A stretch of DNA of 64,000 nucleotides from Armatimonadota bacterium (lineage in GTDB: Bacteria; Armatimonadota; HRBIN16), in assembly GCA_026003175.1 (NCBI GenBank), contig BPGT01000004.1:1-64000 (forward strand), read 5' to 3'. The notes beneath the pieces are model-generated. The model was not told the origin of the DNA. It was given only the letters and a program-made list of their open reading frames with translations, and searched no databases. Below are positions 3,363-23,144 of this stretch, piece after piece. The number at the start of each line of letters is the position of its first letter. Within the stretch, counting starts at the first letter, position 1. Made by a program: the position numbers and the translations under genes.

Positions 3363-4219
3363 TAACCTCTCCTCCTGCGTGCGGCAAAATAGCCGATGTT
3401 GCCCAGTATCACCGCCACGATAATCACCAGATGCCCAAAAGCCTGCGGCACGATGAGCTTGGTGCCCATACTGTTGCGCTCGCGGATGTCGGGGTGGAGC
3501 AGGGCATCGTACTCCGCCGCGCCGCGCACCCCCACCAGCATCCCCACCAGCTGCCCAGAAAGCAGGTAACGATAATAGGTGGTGGACTGGATGCCTGCGC
3601 ATCCAAACGCAATGGGCGTGCCGTATACACCGTGCACAAAAGGTATCCAGTCCTCCAGCGGCGAGTAGGTGACGGAGTAAATCAGGTAGATGTCCTCGAT
3701 GTTGCGCACGCGCTGCATCAGGGGGAGATGCTGAGCGTCGTCCAGCGAATAACCGCGCGAGTCCTTCTTATATTGCTGGCGGATGTCTTTGGCGATTTGC
3801 TGCATCGCCTGCCAGCCGCCTTTGGTATAACCCAGGTTCACCCAGTCCACGCCGTATTTGCGGTCGGGAAACTTCTCGCGCACCAGTTTCTCGATCACCT
3901 TGTCGGCGAACTGTGGTCCCAGCGGTGTAATCTCTACGGATGTGACGATGAAGGGGATGCGCTTGCGCAACAGGTGCTCGAACACCACTTCCACCTGCCC
4001 CCAGTTCTCGCCCTGGCTGCCTGCATCCCATGCGCTGTCCACCAGCACTACCTTGCCGGGAGGGCACTTCTCGATGAACTCGTACAGCCTGCGCGTCTCC
4101 GGCGAGACGTACACGGGCAGCTTGATGTTCACCACGAACGGCAGCGCACACGCCAGCCAGATGGATAGGTAGATCCATCGTCGATCCATCGCCTGCAACT
4201 TCGAGAGCCATTCTATCAT
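3362..4219 (-). CDS. Membrane-anchored protein with extracytoplasmic domain, unknown
   Basis: This 285-aa protein has one N-terminal membrane segment (about residues 16-33), a ~200-residue soluble alpha/beta domain, and one C-terminal segment (about 260-278) followed by RRRRG. The soluble part holds VVLVDSAWDAGSQGENW and VDWVNLGYTKGGWQAM, but no catalytic motif that I know. The C-terminal membrane segment would anchor it near its 235-aa neighbour, to which it is coupled by TAATG. It probably forms an envelope complex with the module genes at 9402-11035. Confidence 0.75.
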   Translation of the reverse strand: MIEWLSKLQAMDRRWIYLSIWLACALPFVVNIKLPVYVSPETRRLYEFIEKCPPGKVVLVDSAWDAGSQGENWGQVEVVFEHLLRKRIPFIVTSVEITPLGPQFADKVIEKLVREKFPDRKYGVDWVNLGYTKGGWQAMQQIAKDIRQQYKKDSRGYSLDDAQHLPLMQRVRNIEDIYLIYSVTYSPLEDWIPFVHGVYGTPIAFGCAGIQSTTYYRYLLSGQLVGMLVGVRGAAEYDALLHPDIRERNSMGTKLIVPQAFGHLVIIVAVILGNIGYFAARRRRG

Positions 4220-4432
4220 GGTGTTATCCTCTGTTCGATATCCCGGACGAGGTGGTTGCCTGAGCTAGTCTATGTTATCCGTCGTAAACGGAAACACCTG
4301 TTGTTCTGGGATTGATTTGAGCGAATTTGCGCCTTACACTAGGCGGGCTTCTCCTGATGCAGCGATTGCGAAAGACTACCAAGCAGGTCACATATACGTA
4401 CGGCTGTGAATGCGAAGACGACCAGTGCAATG

Positions 4433-4972
4433 TCAAACAAAAGATCCGCATAGATTTTGCACGCTCGGAAAGCGGTGGCTGCTGCTGCCATGTTCATCGC
4501 CCGTCGTCCCCTCGTTTCCGTATAGAAAGCGGTGCCCAGTTAACACCATGATGGTGAGCGCGCTTGCAACGAAAATTGGGTCAAAGTTGGCGACGGACGC
4601 AAACAGTATCATGAGCAGCAGAGGCATCAAGCGATAAGTTTCTGCAGGTAGATGTTGGTTCATTTGTCTCTTGACGTTGTCCAGTCCCACAGCGAACGTC
4701 ATCAGCAAGCCTTCGGTCACCGAACCCGTAAAAAAGAATACTATCAATAGCAATATTAGCAAGTTGCTCGCTCTTGTTGTGTTCTGCACGCCCGCTCGTC
4801 TGAAGTAGAGACGGAAACCGATACCAGCAATCGTAGCAGCGGCAAGCATGACATGCGCCTCCTTCCACGAAGCACGTCCAAAATTGTCACATTGCCGTCC
4901 GGTCCACACGAGGTAAGAGAACAGGATCAGCATGATCCTCCAAACTATTCTGCCGTGTCGTGTTGCATTCAT
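4433..4972 (-). CDS. Small membrane protein, unknown
   Basis: The protein has 179 aa with about five hydrophobic segments (IMLILFSYLVW, VMLAAATIAGIGF, LLILLLIVFFFTG and others). It is not recognised. The ATG at 4972 sits seven bases after a strong AAGGAGG site, which settles the start and rules out the longer frame. It lies between the two halves of the membrane module and beside an RHS remnant, so it is part of the inserted stretch. Confidence 0.7.
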   Translation of the reverse strand: MNATRHGRIVWRIMLILFSYLVWTGRQCDNFGRASWKEAHVMLAAATIAGIGFRLYFRRAGVQNTTRASNLLILLLIVFFFTGSVTEGLLMTFAVGLDNVKRQMNQHLPAETYRLMPLLLMILFASVANFDPIFVASALTIMVLTGHRFLYGNEGTTGDEHGSSSHRFPSVQNLCGSFV

Positions 4973-17639: not shown

Positions 17640-17870
17640 ATGACCAAATTGCTGGAACAGGCAATCGCTGAGATCCAGAAGCTGCCTCCCGAGGTGCAGG
17701 ATGCTATCGCTTCTCGTCTCATGGAAGACCTCGTGGATGAGATGTGGTGGGAGAAGCAATTTGCATCTACCTCGAACGAGGAGTGGGACAGAATAGTGAA
17801 GGAGGTAAAGGCAGAAATCGCTCGCGGAGCGACGATAGATTTGGACACCTTTCTAGAAGAGGCTGGGTAG
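17640..17870 (+). CDS. Antitoxin-like small protein (toxin partner decayed)
   Basis: The 76-aa helical protein (IQKLPPEVQDAIASRLMEDL, ...NEEWDRIVKEV, LDTFLEEAG) has the pattern of antitoxins that pair with RelE/HigB-like toxins. The downstream partner survives only as a ~23-codon remnant. GGGGGGGACGTAGT precedes the ATG. It is probably an orphan now. Confidence 0.7.
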   Translation: MTKLLEQAIAEIQKLPPEVQDAIASRLMEDLVDEMWWEKQFASTSNEEWDRIVKEVKAEIARGATIDLDTFLEEAG

Positions 17871-17872
17871 AG

Positions 17873-17941
17873 GTGCTCTCTATAGTCACCGAGGGTTTCC
17901 GTAATCTCTTTGCTGAATTGCCACCAGAGGTGCAAAAACAA
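17873..17941 (+). pseudogene. 5' remnant of a RelE-type toxin gene
   Basis: GTG 17873, two bases after the antitoxin stop, begins LSIVTEGFRNLFAELPPEVQ, matching the first helix of RelE/HigB-like toxins (FRxLFxxLPPEVQ). The frame then enters the promoter region of the vWA gene (TATAAT at 17947-17952). The remaining ~60 residues, including all catalytic residues, are missing. Confidence 0.6.
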
Positions 17942-17978
17942 GACGATATAATAAGAAAACTGCTTTTGGGGGCGAGAT

Positions 17979-19328
17979 ATGGATGCAACGCAGCGCATAG
18001 ACCCGTTGGGGGCACAACCGACGCAACAGATCTCTCCGACCTCTGACCGCACCCAGCAGGTGGCAACGGGGGTTCCCACTGTAATGGGCGTGCCTACGCG
18101 TGCCTTACAGATGGAGTGTATTTTAGGACGTGAGGTGGGCAATGCCTACGGTGGGCGCGAACACCTGCTGGTGGAAATCACCGGTACCAGCGCAGGCATC
18201 GGCAGGAGGCTACCGCTGAATCTGTGTCTGGTGATTGACCGCAGCGGTTCGATGGAGGGCGAGCCGATTGACTACGTGAAACGCGCCTGCGGGTACGTGG
18301 TAGACCTGCTGGACCAGAACGACATCCTCTCTATCATCACTTTCTCGGATAGCGTGGACGTGGTGATGCCCGCGCGCCGCGTAGTGAACAAGACGCTCAT
18401 CAAAGAGCACATCCAGCGCATCGAAATCGGCAACACCACTAACCTCTATGATGGGATGCTGGTCGGCTGTCAGCAGGTGGCGGCGGTGATGAGCGAGCAG
18501 GTACTCACGCGCGTGCTGGTGTTCACCGACGGCGAGCCGACGTCTGGCATTAAGGATTTCGCCTCTATCGTGCAGTTGGCGGCGGAACAGAAAGCGCGTG
18601 GCATCACCATCACCGTGCTGGGCTTCGGTCCCGAGTTCAATGAGGAGTTGCTGGCGGGTATCGCACGGCGCAGTGGGGGCAATTACTACTACATCCAGCG
18701 TCCTGAACTCATCCCCGAGGTGTTCCGCAGGGAGCTGGAACTTCTCATGACCGTTGTGGCGAAAAACGTGCGGCTGATTCTCACTCTGCCTCGCTTCACG
18801 CAGATTCGGCAGGTGTACGGGGCACAGCCCAACCTGCAAGGCAGGGTGGTGGAGATTCCGCAGGTAGACATCGAGCGGGGTGCGGTGGTCACGCAGCTGG
18901 TGGAGATGGACCTGCAGATGCGTCCGCCGGGCAGATACCGTGTGGCGAAGGTCGCGCTGGCATACGATGACACTATCACCGGTAGGGTAGAGCGCATTGA
19001 GGCAGATGCGGTGATGGAGTTCACGCAGGATGTATCTCGCATCCCGCAGAGCATCAACCCGCGCGTGCAGCGCGAGATAGAGATACAGCAACTGTCGCGT
19101 AATCTAGAGCGCACCGTGATGGGCTTAAAGACGCAGCAACTCTCCGCCGCTGAGGCGCGCCAGGAGCTGGAGCGCACGATGGCGATGCTCACCCGGCAGG
19201 GCAGGCTACAGGAAGCACAGGAGATACGGCAGGCTCTCGCCGCGCTTGGCTCCGATGACACGGTGGTGGAGAAAACGCTAATGGGAACCGCTTACTCGCT
19301 GGAGGTGGGAAAGAGTAAACAGCCATGA
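17979..19328 (+). CDS. von Willebrand factor A domain protein (TerY-like)
   Basis: The 449-aa protein has a Thr/Gln-rich start and then a vWA domain from about residue 75. Its MIDAS motif is complete: DRSGSM, the Thr of NTTNLYDG, and the Asp of FTDGEPTSG. A ~100-aa beta-sandwich follows (LILTLPRFTQIRQVYG, ...MRPPGRYRVAKVAL) and a helical end (about 365-430). No signal peptide is seen, so it is cytoplasmic. The stop overlaps the next start by four bases. With the J/FHA, PP2C and kinase genes behind it, it probably forms a phosphorylation-controlled complex, as proposed for TerY-P triads. Confidence 0.9.
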   Translation: MDATQRIDPLGAQPTQQISPTSDRTQQVATGVPTVMGVPTRALQMECILGREVGNAYGGREHLLVEITGTSAGIGRRLPLNLCLVIDRSGSMEGEPIDYVKRACGYVVDLLDQNDILSIITFSDSVDVVMPARRVVNKTLIKEHIQRIEIGNTTNLYDGMLVGCQQVAAVMSEQVLTRVLVFTDGEPTSGIKDFASIVQLAAEQKARGITITVLGFGPEFNEELLAGIARRSGGNYYYIQRPELIPEVFRRELELLMTVVAKNVRLILTLPRFTQIRQVYGAQPNLQGRVVEIPQVDIERGAVVTQLVEMDLQMRPPGRYRVAKVALAYDDTITGRVERIEADAVMEFTQDVSRIPQSINPRVQREIEIQQLSRNLERTVMGLKTQQLSAAEARQELERTMAMLTRQGRLQEAQEIRQALAALGSDDTVVEKTLMGTAYSLEVGKSKQP

Positions 19329-20584
19329 GTACCTTCGACCCACATGAGGACCTGTATGCGCTACTGGAAGTGCCACCCGATGCTTCGGACGAGCTGATAC
19401 GCGAGCAATACCGCAAGCTCGTGCAGCAGTACCTGTGGGACCGCGAGAAGTTCGCCCGGCTCAACCACGCTTTTGAGGTGCTCAGCAACCCCGAGCTGCG
19501 GGCAGAGTACGACAAGCAGGCAGCTATCGCTCGCCCACGCCCCAGCCCCGACGTGCTGGCAACTGCCCCGCCAGCACCACCTGCTGCCGAAGTGGCTCCA
19601 ACGGTCATCGGCGCACCTGTGCAAGACCTGCTGGCGACCCAGCAGATAGCCGACCTGCAACGCACTCAGATGGGGGTGCGCGTCACGTGCCCCGTGTGCA
19701 AAACCGAGACCTCCGCGATAGATGGCTACTGCGAGGAGTGCGGCTTCGCTTTGGAAGGAGCGGAAGCGGTGCAGGAGATTCCTTCGCTGGAGGTACCCGA
19801 GCTGCCTACGCTGGTAGACGCGCTGGGCAACGTGTACACTCTGCGCCCCGGCGTGAACACCGTCGGACGGTTGAACGCGGACGTGTTGCTGAGTGACCCC
19901 AGCGTGTCACGGAGTCATGCCCGTATTATCGTGCAGAACGGTGCTGTGACCATCGAAGACGTGGGCAGCACCAACGGCACGTTCGTCAACGGGCAAAAGC
20001 TGACCCCGCAGGTGGCGGTTCCTCTCAGCGATGGGGCAGAGGTCACCTTTGGCGGCACAAAACTCACCGTGCGGATACCGGGTGCTGCTGCTCCACCGAC
20101 GACAGAGCCAACCCTTGCTGTATCTGCGCCCGTGACTCAAACGTTGACGGTGACGGCAGAGGAGGAGGCTGCTGCGGGCTCGGCGCAGGAAGAGGAAGCG
20201 GAAGTGGTGGCTTACTGGTGCAGCGACGACGGCACGATGCGAGTGCCCCTGTCGCCGGGCATATACACCATCGGACGCAGGCCGAGCAACCATATCGTTA
20301 TCCCTGATCCCTACGTCTCCGGCAACCATGCCATCCTGCTGGTAGAACCGGACCTGGTGAACATCGAGGATGTGGGCAGCACCAACGGCACATTCGTGGA
20401 TGACACCAAGCTGATACCGCATGTGACGGCGCCCTTACCGTTCGGGGTGAAGGTGCAGATAGGGCAGGGTACTTACCATCTGGAGGAGGCGGAAAAGCGC
20501 ACTGTAGAGGAACCACCCCCGGAAAGTGCGCACGAAGAGGAGAAGGCAGTCGTAGCGGGAGAGGGCGATGCAGAGCAACCATAG
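19325..20584 (+). CDS. J-like/zinc-ribbon/double-FHA adaptor protein
   Basis: Order over 419 aa: a J-domain-like N-terminus (residues 8-63, DLYALLEVPPDASDELIREQ and LNHAFEVLSNPELRAEYDK), a zinc ribbon at about 122-143 (CPVCKTE, CEECGF), FHA1 at ~165-250 (VGRLNADVLLSDPSVSRSHA, DVGSTNGTFVNG), an acidic linker, and FHA2 at ~300-390 (IGRRPSNHIVIPDPYVSGNH, DVGSTNGTFVDD). The HPD tripeptide that activates DnaK is absent (YLWDREK instead), so it is a scaffold, not a co-chaperone. The FHA domains should bind phosphothreonine made by the kinase encoded two genes downstream. Confidence 0.9.
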   Translation: MSTFDPHEDLYALLEVPPDASDELIREQYRKLVQQYLWDREKFARLNHAFEVLSNPELRAEYDKQAAIARPRPSPDVLATAPPAPPAAEVAPTVIGAPVQDLLATQQIADLQRTQMGVRVTCPVCKTETSAIDGYCEECGFALEGAEAVQEIPSLEVPELPTLVDALGNVYTLRPGVNTVGRLNADVLLSDPSVSRSHARIIVQNGAVTIEDVGSTNGTFVNGQKLTPQVAVPLSDGAEVTFGGTKLTVRIPGAAAPPTTEPTLAVSAPVTQTLTVTAEEEAAAGSAQEEEAEVVAYWCSDDGTMRVPLSPGIYTIGRRPSNHIVIPDPYVSGNHAILLVEPDLVNIEDVGSTNGTFVDDTKLIPHVTAPLPFGVKVQIGQGTYHLEEAEKRTVEEPPPESAHEEEKAVVAGEGDAEQP

Positions 20585-21467
20585 CGGACAACAGGTCAAC
20601 GAGGAGATAGAGATTACCGCCAAGTTCCGGCGTAACGAACTACTGGCGACGCCCCGGCGCGAGCCGAAAGCACAGCCGGAAGTGGTGCCGTTTGTGCGCT
20701 TTGGGGCAAAGACCGACCTCGGCAACGTGCGTGAGAACAACGAGGATAAATTCGATTTCTTTGAGCCCACCGAGCCGACCCTGTTGGCGGAGCGTGGAAG
20801 CGTGTACGCGGTGTGCGATGGCATGGGTGGGCACAGCGCAGGGCAAATCGCCAGTGAGCTGGCTTTGAAGACATTCCTGAAAGCGTATTATGATCTGGAA
20901 CTGCCCGATATCGACACCGCCCTGACGTTCGCAGTGCAGGCAGCCAACGCCCTGGTGCGCGAGGCGGCACAATCCATCCCCGGCAGGCGTGGCATGGGCA
21001 CAACGCTCACCGCTGTCGCGCTCTGCGAAGGGGACGCGCATATCGTGCATGTCGGGGATAGCCGATGCTACCTGGTACGTGGCGAGGTGATAGAACAGGT
21101 TACCGAGGACCATTCCTACGTGATGGAGCAGGTGCGGCAAGGGTTACTGACGCTGGAGGAGGCGCAATACTCGCCTTACCGCAACGTGATTACCCGTTCC
21201 ATCGGCATGGACGCAGTGGAACCCGATATCTATCGCGTGCCTTTGCAGGCGGGCGACAGATTGGTACTCTGCACCGACGGGCTAACCACGCACGTCTCCG
21301 ATGAACACATTGCGGAGGTGGTGCGCACCCATTCGCCTTCCGCTGCCGCGCAGCGGCTGGTGGAGATGGCTTTGGAAGAGGGTGGTTCGGACAATGTGAC
21401 GGTAATGGTGGTGCAGGTGCTGGAGCTGCTTACATGGGAAAAGGCGCAGCAGATTGGCTGGGTGTAA
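20568..21467 (+). CDS. PP2C-type Ser/Thr phosphatase
   Basis: The 299-aa protein shows the PPM motifs: DLGNVRENNEDKF, VCDGMGGHSAGQIAS, HVGDSRCYLVRG, TEDHSYV, LCTDGLTTHVSDEHI and GGSDNVTVMVV. The Asp residues bind the two metals, so it should be active. It is cytoplasmic. The first ~45 residues are an extra charged leader. It overlaps the FHA gene by 17 bp and is followed after three bases by the kinase gene: a phosphatase/kinase pair that sets the phosphorylation state of the vWA/FHA partners. Confidence 0.93.
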   Translation: MQSNHSGQQVNEEIEITAKFRRNELLATPRREPKAQPEVVPFVRFGAKTDLGNVRENNEDKFDFFEPTEPTLLAERGSVYAVCDGMGGHSAGQIASELALKTFLKAYYDLELPDIDTALTFAVQAANALVREAAQSIPGRRGMGTTLTAVALCEGDAHIVHVGDSRCYLVRGEVIEQVTEDHSYVMEQVRQGLLTLEEAQYSPYRNVITRSIGMDAVEPDIYRVPLQAGDRLVLCTDGLTTHVSDEHIAEVVRTHSPSAAAQRLVEMALEEGGSDNVTVMVVQVLELLTWEKAQQIGWV

Positions 21468-21470
21468 CGG

Positions 21471-23144
21471 ATGACCTCTTCGGTGAATACGCTGGGCAAA
21501 TATCAGATTGTGCGCGAAATCGCCCGCAGCAACGATATCGTGTGGGAGGCAGTGGACCCCGAGCTGGGTCGGCGCGTGGCGATTAAGGAGCTGAATCTGC
21601 CCGAAGGCGTCACCGAAGCGCAAAAGCAGGAACGCATCAACCGATTCCTGCGCGAGGCGAAGGCAGCGGGGCGGCTCAGCCATCCCAATATCGTAACCAT
21701 CCACGAGGTAGGCATCGACAACGGGCGGCACTACATCGTGATGGAGTATCTGGAAGGGGAGAACCTGCGCGAACGGTTGCAACGCCAGGGGGCTATCCCT
21801 CTTAAGGAAGCGGTGGACATTACACTACAAGTGCTGTCCGCGCTGGAACACGCGCACCGGATGGGTGTGGTGCATCGTGACATCAAACCCGAAAACATCC
21901 ACCTTCTGCCCGGTGGTCTGGTGAAGCTCACTGATTTCGGCATTGCCCGCATCGTTTTTGAGCCGAATATCACTATCGACGGGCAGATATTCGGCACGCC
22001 CAGCTATATGTCTCCTGAGCAGATAGAAGGCGGGGAAATAGATCAGCGCACGGACATCTTCTCGCTGGGTGTGGTGCTGTACGAGATGCTCACCGGACGC
22101 AAGCCTTTCACCGGTGAAAGCATCGTTACTATCACCTACAACATCATGCACAAAGAGCCGACGCCGCCACCCGGCGTGCCGTACGGTATCGAACGGGTTC
22201 TGACGCGCGCGATGGCGAAGCGACCGGGTGACCGCTACGCTTCTGCCCGTGAGATGGCGGAAGATCTGAAGCGTGCGATGGAGCCGGGGGCACTGGTCAT
22301 GCCTGCGCCGCCTCCGGTGGTAGCCTCTCCCCCTGCTGGAGGGTCTCCCGGTGCATCTTCGTTGCCACCCTTGCTGAATCCGGTGCCAAACCCTGCACCA
22401 GCCGGGGGGCAGGTTTCCTCGCTCCCCCGGGTGCAGAAGAAGCCTCCACCGCCCCTGCCCAAGCCGCGCGAGCCGTGGCTGTCTCCAAGGGAGAGTGAAG
22501 CCATGAAGCAGATGCTGCTGGTGCTGTTTCTCGGTTTGCTCATCGTGCTGATTGCTTACGGCATCAACGTCGCCTACGAGCGGTATGCCGAGCTGCAGCG
22601 CATGGAGATGCTCAGCACGCAGATGAGCGACGGGGTGAAGCTGGCGCAAGCGGGCAACTATCGTGAGGCGCTGGCTCGGTTTGTGAACGTGTATCAGAAC
22701 GCGAGGTCTGCGGAGGTGCGCGCGGTAGCCGCTCGCAACGCTGCTGTATGTCTGGTGCACCTCGGAGATGAAGCTCTGCAAGCAGGGCGAGCCGACCTCG
22801 CTTTGCAGTACTATCAGCAGGCAATGCAGTATGACCCCAGCTCCGTTGCTGCCCGTCAGAGAGTGGACCAGGTTTCCCGAATGTACTCGGGCAGTGTGGA
22901 CATCACACCACCGATTGCTCCTCCTCCTGCCGTCCGCTCGAACGGCTCTTCGCCGGAGCTTCCTCCTCGTCCACGCGGCAACGAGCCGCTGGCGGTGGAG
23001 CTGTATATGCGTGGGTTGGAAGCCTACCAGCGCGGCGACCGCCTCACAGCGGTAGACCTGTGGCAGAAAGCCATTCAAGCTGCGCCCGGCTCTGAGACGG
23101 CGCGCCTGGCGATGGAGTCTATTCAACAGCTGACCGCGAGATAA
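21471..23144 (+). CDS. Membrane Ser/Thr protein kinase with TPR-like extracytoplasmic domain
   Basis: In this 557-aa protein the kinase domain (residues 10-270) has VAIKEL (ATP-binding Lys), HRDIKPENIHLL (catalytic loop), TDFGIAR and SPEQ. The glycine loop is unusual: ARSNDIVW replaces GxGxxGxV, so nucleotide binding may differ. A Pro-rich linker (280-340), one membrane helix (about 345-366) and TPR-like repeats (380-550, e.g. LALQYYQQAMQYDPSS) follow. It is a PknB-like receptor kinase and the last gene of the vWA/FHA/PP2C operon. Confidence 0.93.
   Translation: MTSSVNTLGKYQIVREIARSNDIVWEAVDPELGRRVAIKELNLPEGVTEAQKQERINRFLREAKAAGRLSHPNIVTIHEVGIDNGRHYIVMEYLEGENLRERLQRQGAIPLKEAVDITLQVLSALEHAHRMGVVHRDIKPENIHLLPGGLVKLTDFGIARIVFEPNITIDGQIFGTPSYMSPEQIEGGEIDQRTDIFSLGVVLYEMLTGRKPFTGESIVTITYNIMHKEPTPPPGVPYGIERVLTRAMAKRPGDRYASAREMAEDLKRAMEPGALVMPAPPPVVASPPAGGSPGASSLPPLLNPVPNPAPAGGQVSSLPRVQKKPPPPLPKPREPWLSPRESEAMKQMLLVLFLGLLIVLIAYGINVAYERYAELQRMEMLSTQMSDGVKLAQAGNYREALARFVNVYQNARSAEVRAVAARNAAVCLVHLGDEALQAGRADLALQYYQQAMQYDPSSVAARQRVDQVSRMYSGSVDITPPIAPPPAVRSNGSSPELPPRPRGNEPLAVELYMRGLEAYQRGDRLTAVDLWQKAIQAAPGSETARLAMESIQQLTAR

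Follow-up and report, generated by a model that had tools for sequence, protein, structure and literature searches.

What kind of signalling system is formed by a vWA protein, an FHA adaptor, a PP2C phosphatase and a Ser/Thr kinase whose genes stand head to tail in an Armatimonadota genome (assembly GCA_026003175.1)? The four genes occupy positions 17979 to 23144 of a 64,000-nucleotide stretch of contig BPGT01000004.1, the whole of which is referred to here as the window. An earlier note, made from the sequence alone, described them as a TerY-P-like operon that might act as a self-contained signalling device from envelope to cytoplasm. Here we report that the vWA protein has the predicted fold of ArnB, the partner of the zinc-ribbon/FHA protein ArnA in the archaellum network of Sulfolobus acidocaldarius, that the operon is conserved in much of the phylum, and that a threonine motif recurs in the tails of its vWA and adaptor proteins. 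We lean towards reading the operon as a self-contained ArnA/ArnB-like phosphothreonine switch that includes a membrane kinase and a PP2C phosphatase of its own.

Gene order and conservation in the phylum

The genes lie on the forward strand in the order vWA, adaptor, PP2C and kinase and are joined by a 4-bp overlap, a 17-bp overlap and a 3-bp gap; on recheck, the coordinates and couplings given by the earlier note proved exact. Pfam domain matches agreed with its identification of the four proteins, placing VWA at residues 81-249 of the first, DnaJ (residues 9-63) and two FHA domains in the adaptor, PP2C in the phosphatase, and Pkinase and TPR in the kinase.

Conservation was computed directly by searching one set of 151 genomes from the phylum, most of them metagenome-assembled by title and the source genome among them, with each of three queries: the adaptor, the kinase domain and the vWA protein. 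Orthologues were accepted at E values of 1e-94 or better for the kinase (plus one partial match, in genome G095), 1.3e-46 or better for the vWA protein (36%-identity matches of G010, G025 and G060 being left out), and 5.5e-20 or better for the adaptor. The kinase was found in 91 genomes, the vWA protein in 90 and the adaptor in 91; all three occur in 85 genomes, none in 55, and the 11 with a partial set include many fragmented assemblies. Fisher tests of co-occurrence, which ignore common descent, gave 1e-30 and below.

We retrieved 58 loci surrounding adaptor genes from elsewhere in the phylum; the order vWA-adaptor-PP2C-kinase was kept in 33, and the rest were split or interrupted at contig ends; since the same order recurs in so many other genomes, the arrangement is not due to chance. 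In one family (f12) the parts stand at three sites, for example FHA-FHA-vWA, adaptor-PP2C and kinase in G085, and this retention of unlinked parts argues for one functional set. Thus the earlier idea of a self-contained kinase, phosphatase, FHA and vWA module with a predicted membrane kinase, which was open to refutation had the four genes not been conserved together, survived the phylum-wide gene searches and the fetched loci.

Two extra FHA proteins are encoded directly 5' of the vWA gene in many lineages. In the source genome this pair lies away from the operon, at C3:252264-255020, where it comes after a gene for NAD(P)HX repair whose family cluster is present in 27 of 81 clustered stretches; at locus L038 (G000:C3, 3706-8021) the gene for the repair enzyme stands before those of the two membrane FHA proteins, which bear zinc knuckles. 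In a J-bearing lineage, a zinc-ribbon/B-box/RDD membrane protein is encoded between adaptor and PP2C (L062, 4486-5217), and related open reading frames (ORFs) were seen in four loci.

An ArnB-like vWA protein

The vWA protein (17979..19328, + strand; 449 amino acids) starts with a disordered tail (residues 1-37, 17979..18089) with predicted local distance difference test (pLDDT) values below 50, in which threonines stand in TQ and TVMG motifs. The vWA domain (18219..18725) has an intact metal-ion-dependent adhesion site (MIDAS), D87-x-S89-x-S91, that is conserved among relatives. The computed structure model (mean pLDDT 85.6) is a beta-sandwich split by the vWA domain and followed by a four-helix bundle (residues 361-443, 19059..19307), which is ArnB-like in structure comparison. 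Two threonine motifs lie in this C-terminal part: T379-V-M-G within the bundle (19113..19124), whose T379 is invariant in 40 sequences, 33 of them with TxMG; and E-K-T433-L-M-G (19269..19286), where KT[LI]xG is kept in 39 of the 40.

ArnB (8s05) was the first-ranked Foldseek hit of the model (E 1.8e-25), and structure comparison with it gave Z 35.7 over 373 aligned residues at a root-mean-square deviation (rmsd) of 3.3 (VIA). The top full-length structures were 4fx5 (Z 36.5), ArnB 8s05 and the ArnB paralogue 5a8j (Z 30.4), the next one scoring 26.5. ArnB was also the best sequence match in the PDB (8s05_A, 3e-15 over residues 82-417) and was matched by profile at 1.1e-18 over residues 88-433; a human inter-alpha-trypsin inhibitor chain ranked level with ArnB in the profile search, its match being confined to the vWA domain. 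Four regions with plasmid relatives of the protein were read (Deinococcus, cyanobacteria); three of these relatives follow a MerR gene, and no FHA, PP2C or Ser/Thr kinase gene is listed near any of the four.

The adaptor, the phosphatase and the ArnA/ArnB comparison

The adaptor (19325..20584, +; 419 amino acids) combines a J-like domain (PF00226, 19349..19513), a linker with the threonine motifs APTVIGAP, ATQQI and RTQMG (19586..19672), a zinc ribbon CxxC-x10-CxxC at about residues 122-145 (19688..19759), assigned from weak Pfam matches and conserved cysteines, and two FHA domains (19859..20053, 77.6 bits; 20264..20464, 63.3 bits). Among 33 adaptors, ribbon cysteines C122, C136 and C139 are invariant and C125 is nearly so; the FHA residues G181-R182, S195, H198 and N217 of the first domain and G317-R318, S332, H335 and N354 of the second are invariant too. 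The second FHA domain is the one that matches the FHA domain of ArnA. The PP2C Ser/Thr phosphatase (20568..21467, +) scores above the cut-off of the NCBIfam Stp1/IreP equivalog NF033484 (246 versus 230 bits).

In Sulfolobus, the hold of the ArnA ribbon on ArnB is weak before phosphorylation, and the FHA domain then binds phosphothreonine of the ArnB helix bundle, both steps being backed by experiment (PMC12852372); ArnB is phosphorylated by ArnC, and PP2A reverses this (PMC12852372, PMC6509490). In both systems an ArnB-fold vWA protein is encoded next to a zinc-ribbon/FHA protein, the locus numbers of ArnA and ArnB being adjacent, and the adaptor ribbon has the same cysteine spacing as that of ArnA (C21/C24/C35/C38; PMC12852372). 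Conserved helix-bundle threonines appear in both, T379 and T433 being the candidates here. ArnC, like the operon kinase, is a Hanks kinase joined to TPR-like repeats, and each system has an opposing phosphatase. In contrast to the archaeal network, the operon is bacterial and encodes kinase and phosphatase together, its kinase is apparently membrane-bound and has an odd loop, and its adaptor carries two FHA domains and a J-like domain, with threonine-motif tails in addition.

A recurrent threonine motif

The motif D-P-N-[RK]-T-[QV]-[MI]-[GA] is repeated in the tails of vWA proteins and in the adaptor stretch before the ribbon. Its enrichment was computed over 69 tails (38 vWA, 31 adaptor) after two same-genus rows had been dropped per set. 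Around the threonine, D is enriched 3.8-fold at -4, N 4.3-fold at -2, K/R about 5-fold at -1, Q 4.7-fold at +1 and M/I about 3-fold at +2, and T.[MILV][AGS] occurs 91 times as compared with 17.2 +/- 3.9 in 1000 shuffles. Searched as DNA, DP[ND][RK]TQM has 13 matches in the 151 genomes, 10 of them assigned by position to vWA or adaptor tails. A wider pattern gave 24 matches in 19 genomes, of which 17 fall in vWA or adaptor tails, two in DnaK and five elsewhere; as the reversed control also gives five, the last group is at chance level. From its sequence, the motif looks as would be expected of a kinase site and FHA ligand, and we regard it as a candidate for both.

The motif was also noticed in a small zinc-ribbon protein encoded away from the operon (L271, ~4180-4457, +), where DPNKTQM follows the ribbon; this protein may be an FHA client.

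A proposed phosphothreonine switch

In the switch that we propose, the kinase, held by a one-helix anchor and exposing its TPR-like part beyond the membrane, would sense the state of the envelope and phosphorylate threonines of the T-[QV]-[MI]-[GA] type in the vWA N-terminal tail, the vWA helix bundle and the adaptor linker. Before phosphorylation, the adaptor ribbon would hold the vWA protein loosely; afterwards, the FHA domains would clamp the vWA protein or, as in GarA/OdhI, the adaptor's own linker. In many relatives, the two membrane FHA proteins encoded beside the vWA gene (the pair found elsewhere in the source genome) may bring the complex to the membrane. The PP2C phosphatase would reset the switch, and the signal could be passed on through either the metal site of the vWA protein or the exposed ribbon. 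What the analysis shows is the set of parts, their order and conservation, the predicted fold of the vWA protein and the enrichment of the motif; every step of this working, from phosphorylation by the kinase and FHA binding to the output, we infer.

Several observations weigh against this reading. The three-domain fold of ArnB is widespread, and both 4fx5, with its higher Z score, and Sec23/24 match the model too; according to PMC12852372, ArnB-like proteins are common, yet most take no part in multi-phosphorylation processes. For 40 members, the Pfam families with E values up to 10 did not include ArnB_C, in a library whose content was not checked for that model. The Sulfolobus phosphatase is PP2A, whereas the operon encodes PP2C. 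The shuffles behind the motif count ignore the kinship of the sequences, neither the narrow nor the wider DP[ND]..T DNA pattern has a match in the source genome, whose own motifs (PTVMG, RTQMG, ATQQI, EKTLMG) are looser forms, and the whole set is missing from the 55 genomes mentioned above. With no ArnB_C match from Pfam and a phosphatase of another type, we keep the label to ArnAB-like in working, short of strict membership. Since one operon encodes an ArnB-like protein together with its ribbon/FHA partner and with both kinase and phosphatase, a bacterial ArnAB-like switch becomes open to direct test.

The strongest competitor, which we judge possible and distinctly less probable, is a metabolic switch of the GarA/OdhI kind, in which the kinase would phosphorylate the adaptor's TQM threonine, the first FHA domain would fold back on it and thereby toggle a metabolic-enzyme target, and the vWA protein would be one of several clients. 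In profile searches the adaptor does have GarA and OdhI among its best hits, the kinase domain model has the fold of PknB (Z 35.8, 251 residues aligned, rmsd 1.3), and many adaptors carry the threonine motif directly before the ribbon; GarA and OdhI, which work with PknB/PknG, likewise pair a threonine-bearing N-terminal stretch with a PknB-like kinase. However, these proteins have a single FHA domain, no ribbon and no vWA partner, so two FHA domains plus ribbon do not fit the GarA plan, and the vWA gene and its threonine motifs are conserved as well as those of the adaptor. The GarA/OdhI motif is ETT, as compared with TQM here.

A kinase with a glycine-free nucleotide loop

The kinase (21471..23144, +) is closest to PknB-type kinases, yet scores 311.7 bits against the PASTA-kinase family NF033483, below its cut-off of 450; by NCBIfam and Pfam, PASTA domains are absent and TPR stands in their place. 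A hydrophobic stretch (22512..22571) that falls in a long helix of the structure model (residues 339-393) is probably a transmembrane helix, and a TPR-like region (Pfam TPR_2 and model helices; 22620..23141) follows. Of the membrane receptor kinase with a TPR-like outer part that the earlier note had pictured, the membrane helix and the TPR-like region are upheld by prediction, and the orientation, which would place that region on the far side, we infer. Envelope sensing is suggested by this predicted helix and TPR-like tail.

The nucleotide loop, IARSNDIVWEA (21519..21551), is free of glycine, as had been described. Aligned to that of PknA it lacks one residue, and the Pfam kinase model match begins at model position 15, beyond the loop. 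Lys39, HRDIKPEN and DFG are all kept. A DNA pattern of the loop matched 86 of the 151 genomes, usually once each, and its reversed control had zero matches; six more orthologues outside the pattern, read individually, have ARSND too. Overall, SND is present in 91 of 91 orthologues and the preceding R in 90, with Q in the other (G041), and A is replaced by G in a few. The predicted structure shows, with confidence, a tight hairpin at the loop, formed by strands 11-19 and 22-29. We read the odd loop as a fixed alternative, a conserved signature of a phylum-wide orthologue. A pseudogene, or decay of the loop, was rejected in view of the loop's conservation across orthologues.

The kinase could nevertheless be dead or nearly so, its glycine-less loop giving no useful ATP binding, with the protein acting as a scaffold and the PP2C phosphatase serving other kinases. 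The missing glycines and the one-residue deletion would fit this, as would the normal loops (LGVGGMAHV and IGGGGMARV) of the two kinase paralogues in the source genome. Against it, the catalytic lysine, HRD, DFG and the residues of the activation segment do not vary across 34 aligned kinases, the loop shows no drift, and the phosphatase gene lies only 3 bp away; we consider a dead kinase improbable. The invariant SND loop is a natural case for testing to what extent the glycine-rich loop, a textbook hallmark of kinases, is replaceable, and no account of it was found in the accessible parts of the open literature.

In a wider contig collection, among at least 120 stretches listed with the loop pattern, 116 had a kinase motif of the H-R-D type downstream, and the other four, which are cut or short, were read as the start of a kinase. 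Of 115 listed stretches placed in a tree, 96 are labelled Armatimonadota, 16 have no phylum and three bear another label; the tree was midpoint-rooted with one very long branch, and its deep branching was not used. The three are one assembly labelled Methanoregulaceae and two labelled Actinomycetota (L153, L188, L196). As the kinase labelled Methanoregulaceae falls among Fimbriimonadaceae rows, mislabelling or mixed bins are likely. The loop was also present in L202, a contig with the title Fimbriimonas ginsengisoli Gsoil 348, a cultured member of the phylum. The pattern was not found in viral contigs.

Tentatively, the preferred reading could be widened to a core phosphothreonine circuit of the phylum, with D-P-N-[RK]-T-[QV]-[MI]-[GA] as its code, an active kinase class in which a fixed, shortened A-R-S-N-D hairpin without glycine takes the place of the glycine-rich loop, and a role as the bacterial counterpart of ArnA/ArnB, perhaps through shared ancestry; we regard this wider proposal as conceivable but short of probable.

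Hsp70, TerY-P and other systems

The J-like domain of the adaptor could point to an Hsp70-linked stress system, in which it would recruit a DnaK whose tail bears the same threonine motif in some genomes. The DnaK proteins of G013 and G079 (L272 and L273; one genus) do carry DPDKTQMGGDDVIDAEF near the C-terminus, with a few more residues after it. However, these are the only two of 30 fetched DnaK loci with the motif; it was absent from the other readable tails (that of L277 being unreadable) and from DnaK in the source genome, and DnaK as a general client was rejected on these counts. The earlier remark that the J-like domain lacks HPD also holds more widely, the tripeptide being found in none of 27 J-like ORFs (the window included, and species seen twice counted twice). 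The domain itself is an addition in some adaptor families and is missing from most lineages. With HPD missing wherever a J-like domain is present and the domain absent in most lineages, an Hsp70 role is unlikely, and we give this explanation very little credence.

The weakest reading, a TerY-P-type conflict or stress triad, has in its favour the same protein classes encoded together (vWA, PP2C, kinase) and PADLOC matches of the kinase, mainly to the general kinase models PD-T4-6, but is barely tenable as the set is core-like across much of the phylum rather than patchy and shares with the E. coli triad no detectable kinship other than the MIDAS motif. Against YegL of YegL/PphC/YegI, which we take to represent the TerY-P triads, the ArnB-fold vWA protein gave a 15-residue MIDAS match and 48 hhalign columns at 75% probability, and their architectures differ; BLASTP found no significant match of the PP2C phosphatase to PphC or of the kinase to YegI. 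That no Ter genes are near was correctly noted, TerD (PF02342) being absent from the whole genome (control positive in 2 of 14). TerY-P kinship, proposed by the earlier note, was rejected on these comparisons and the absence of TerD.

The PpkA-PppA-Fha1 pathway of the type VI secretion system also joins a membrane kinase, a PP2C phosphatase and an FHA protein, and PpkA carries a vWA-like part; it was rejected, as TssB (PF05591) is absent from the source genome (control positive in 1 of 14). A defence role was rejected since the PADLOC matches are mainly to general kinase models. The actinobacterial FhaA-FhaB-PstP-PknA/PknB operon resembles the locus in its FHA proteins, PstP/Stp-like PP2C and PknB-like membrane kinase, and differs from it in that the locus has neither FhaA_N nor PASTA and has vWA and ribbon parts instead. 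A second Ser/Thr kinase set elsewhere in the source genome, at 5976-10401 of L039 (G000:C2, ~1292975-1297400), encodes a true FhaA_N/FHA/FHA protein, a PP2C phosphatase and a kinase with a normal loop, and is a system of the actinobacterial type.

Neighbouring genes

By Pfam, the operon is preceded by genes for PIN, HIT and uracil-DNA-glycosylase proteins and followed by a Gfo/Idh/MocA oxidoreductase gene. On the 5' side of the vWA gene there is a small ORF (window 17640-17870, +; 76 amino acids) with no Pfam match above cut-off, and 3' of it a short reading frame (window ~17873-17960, +) that continues into the start of the vWA gene; the two resemble an antitoxin and the truncated start of a RelE-type toxin.

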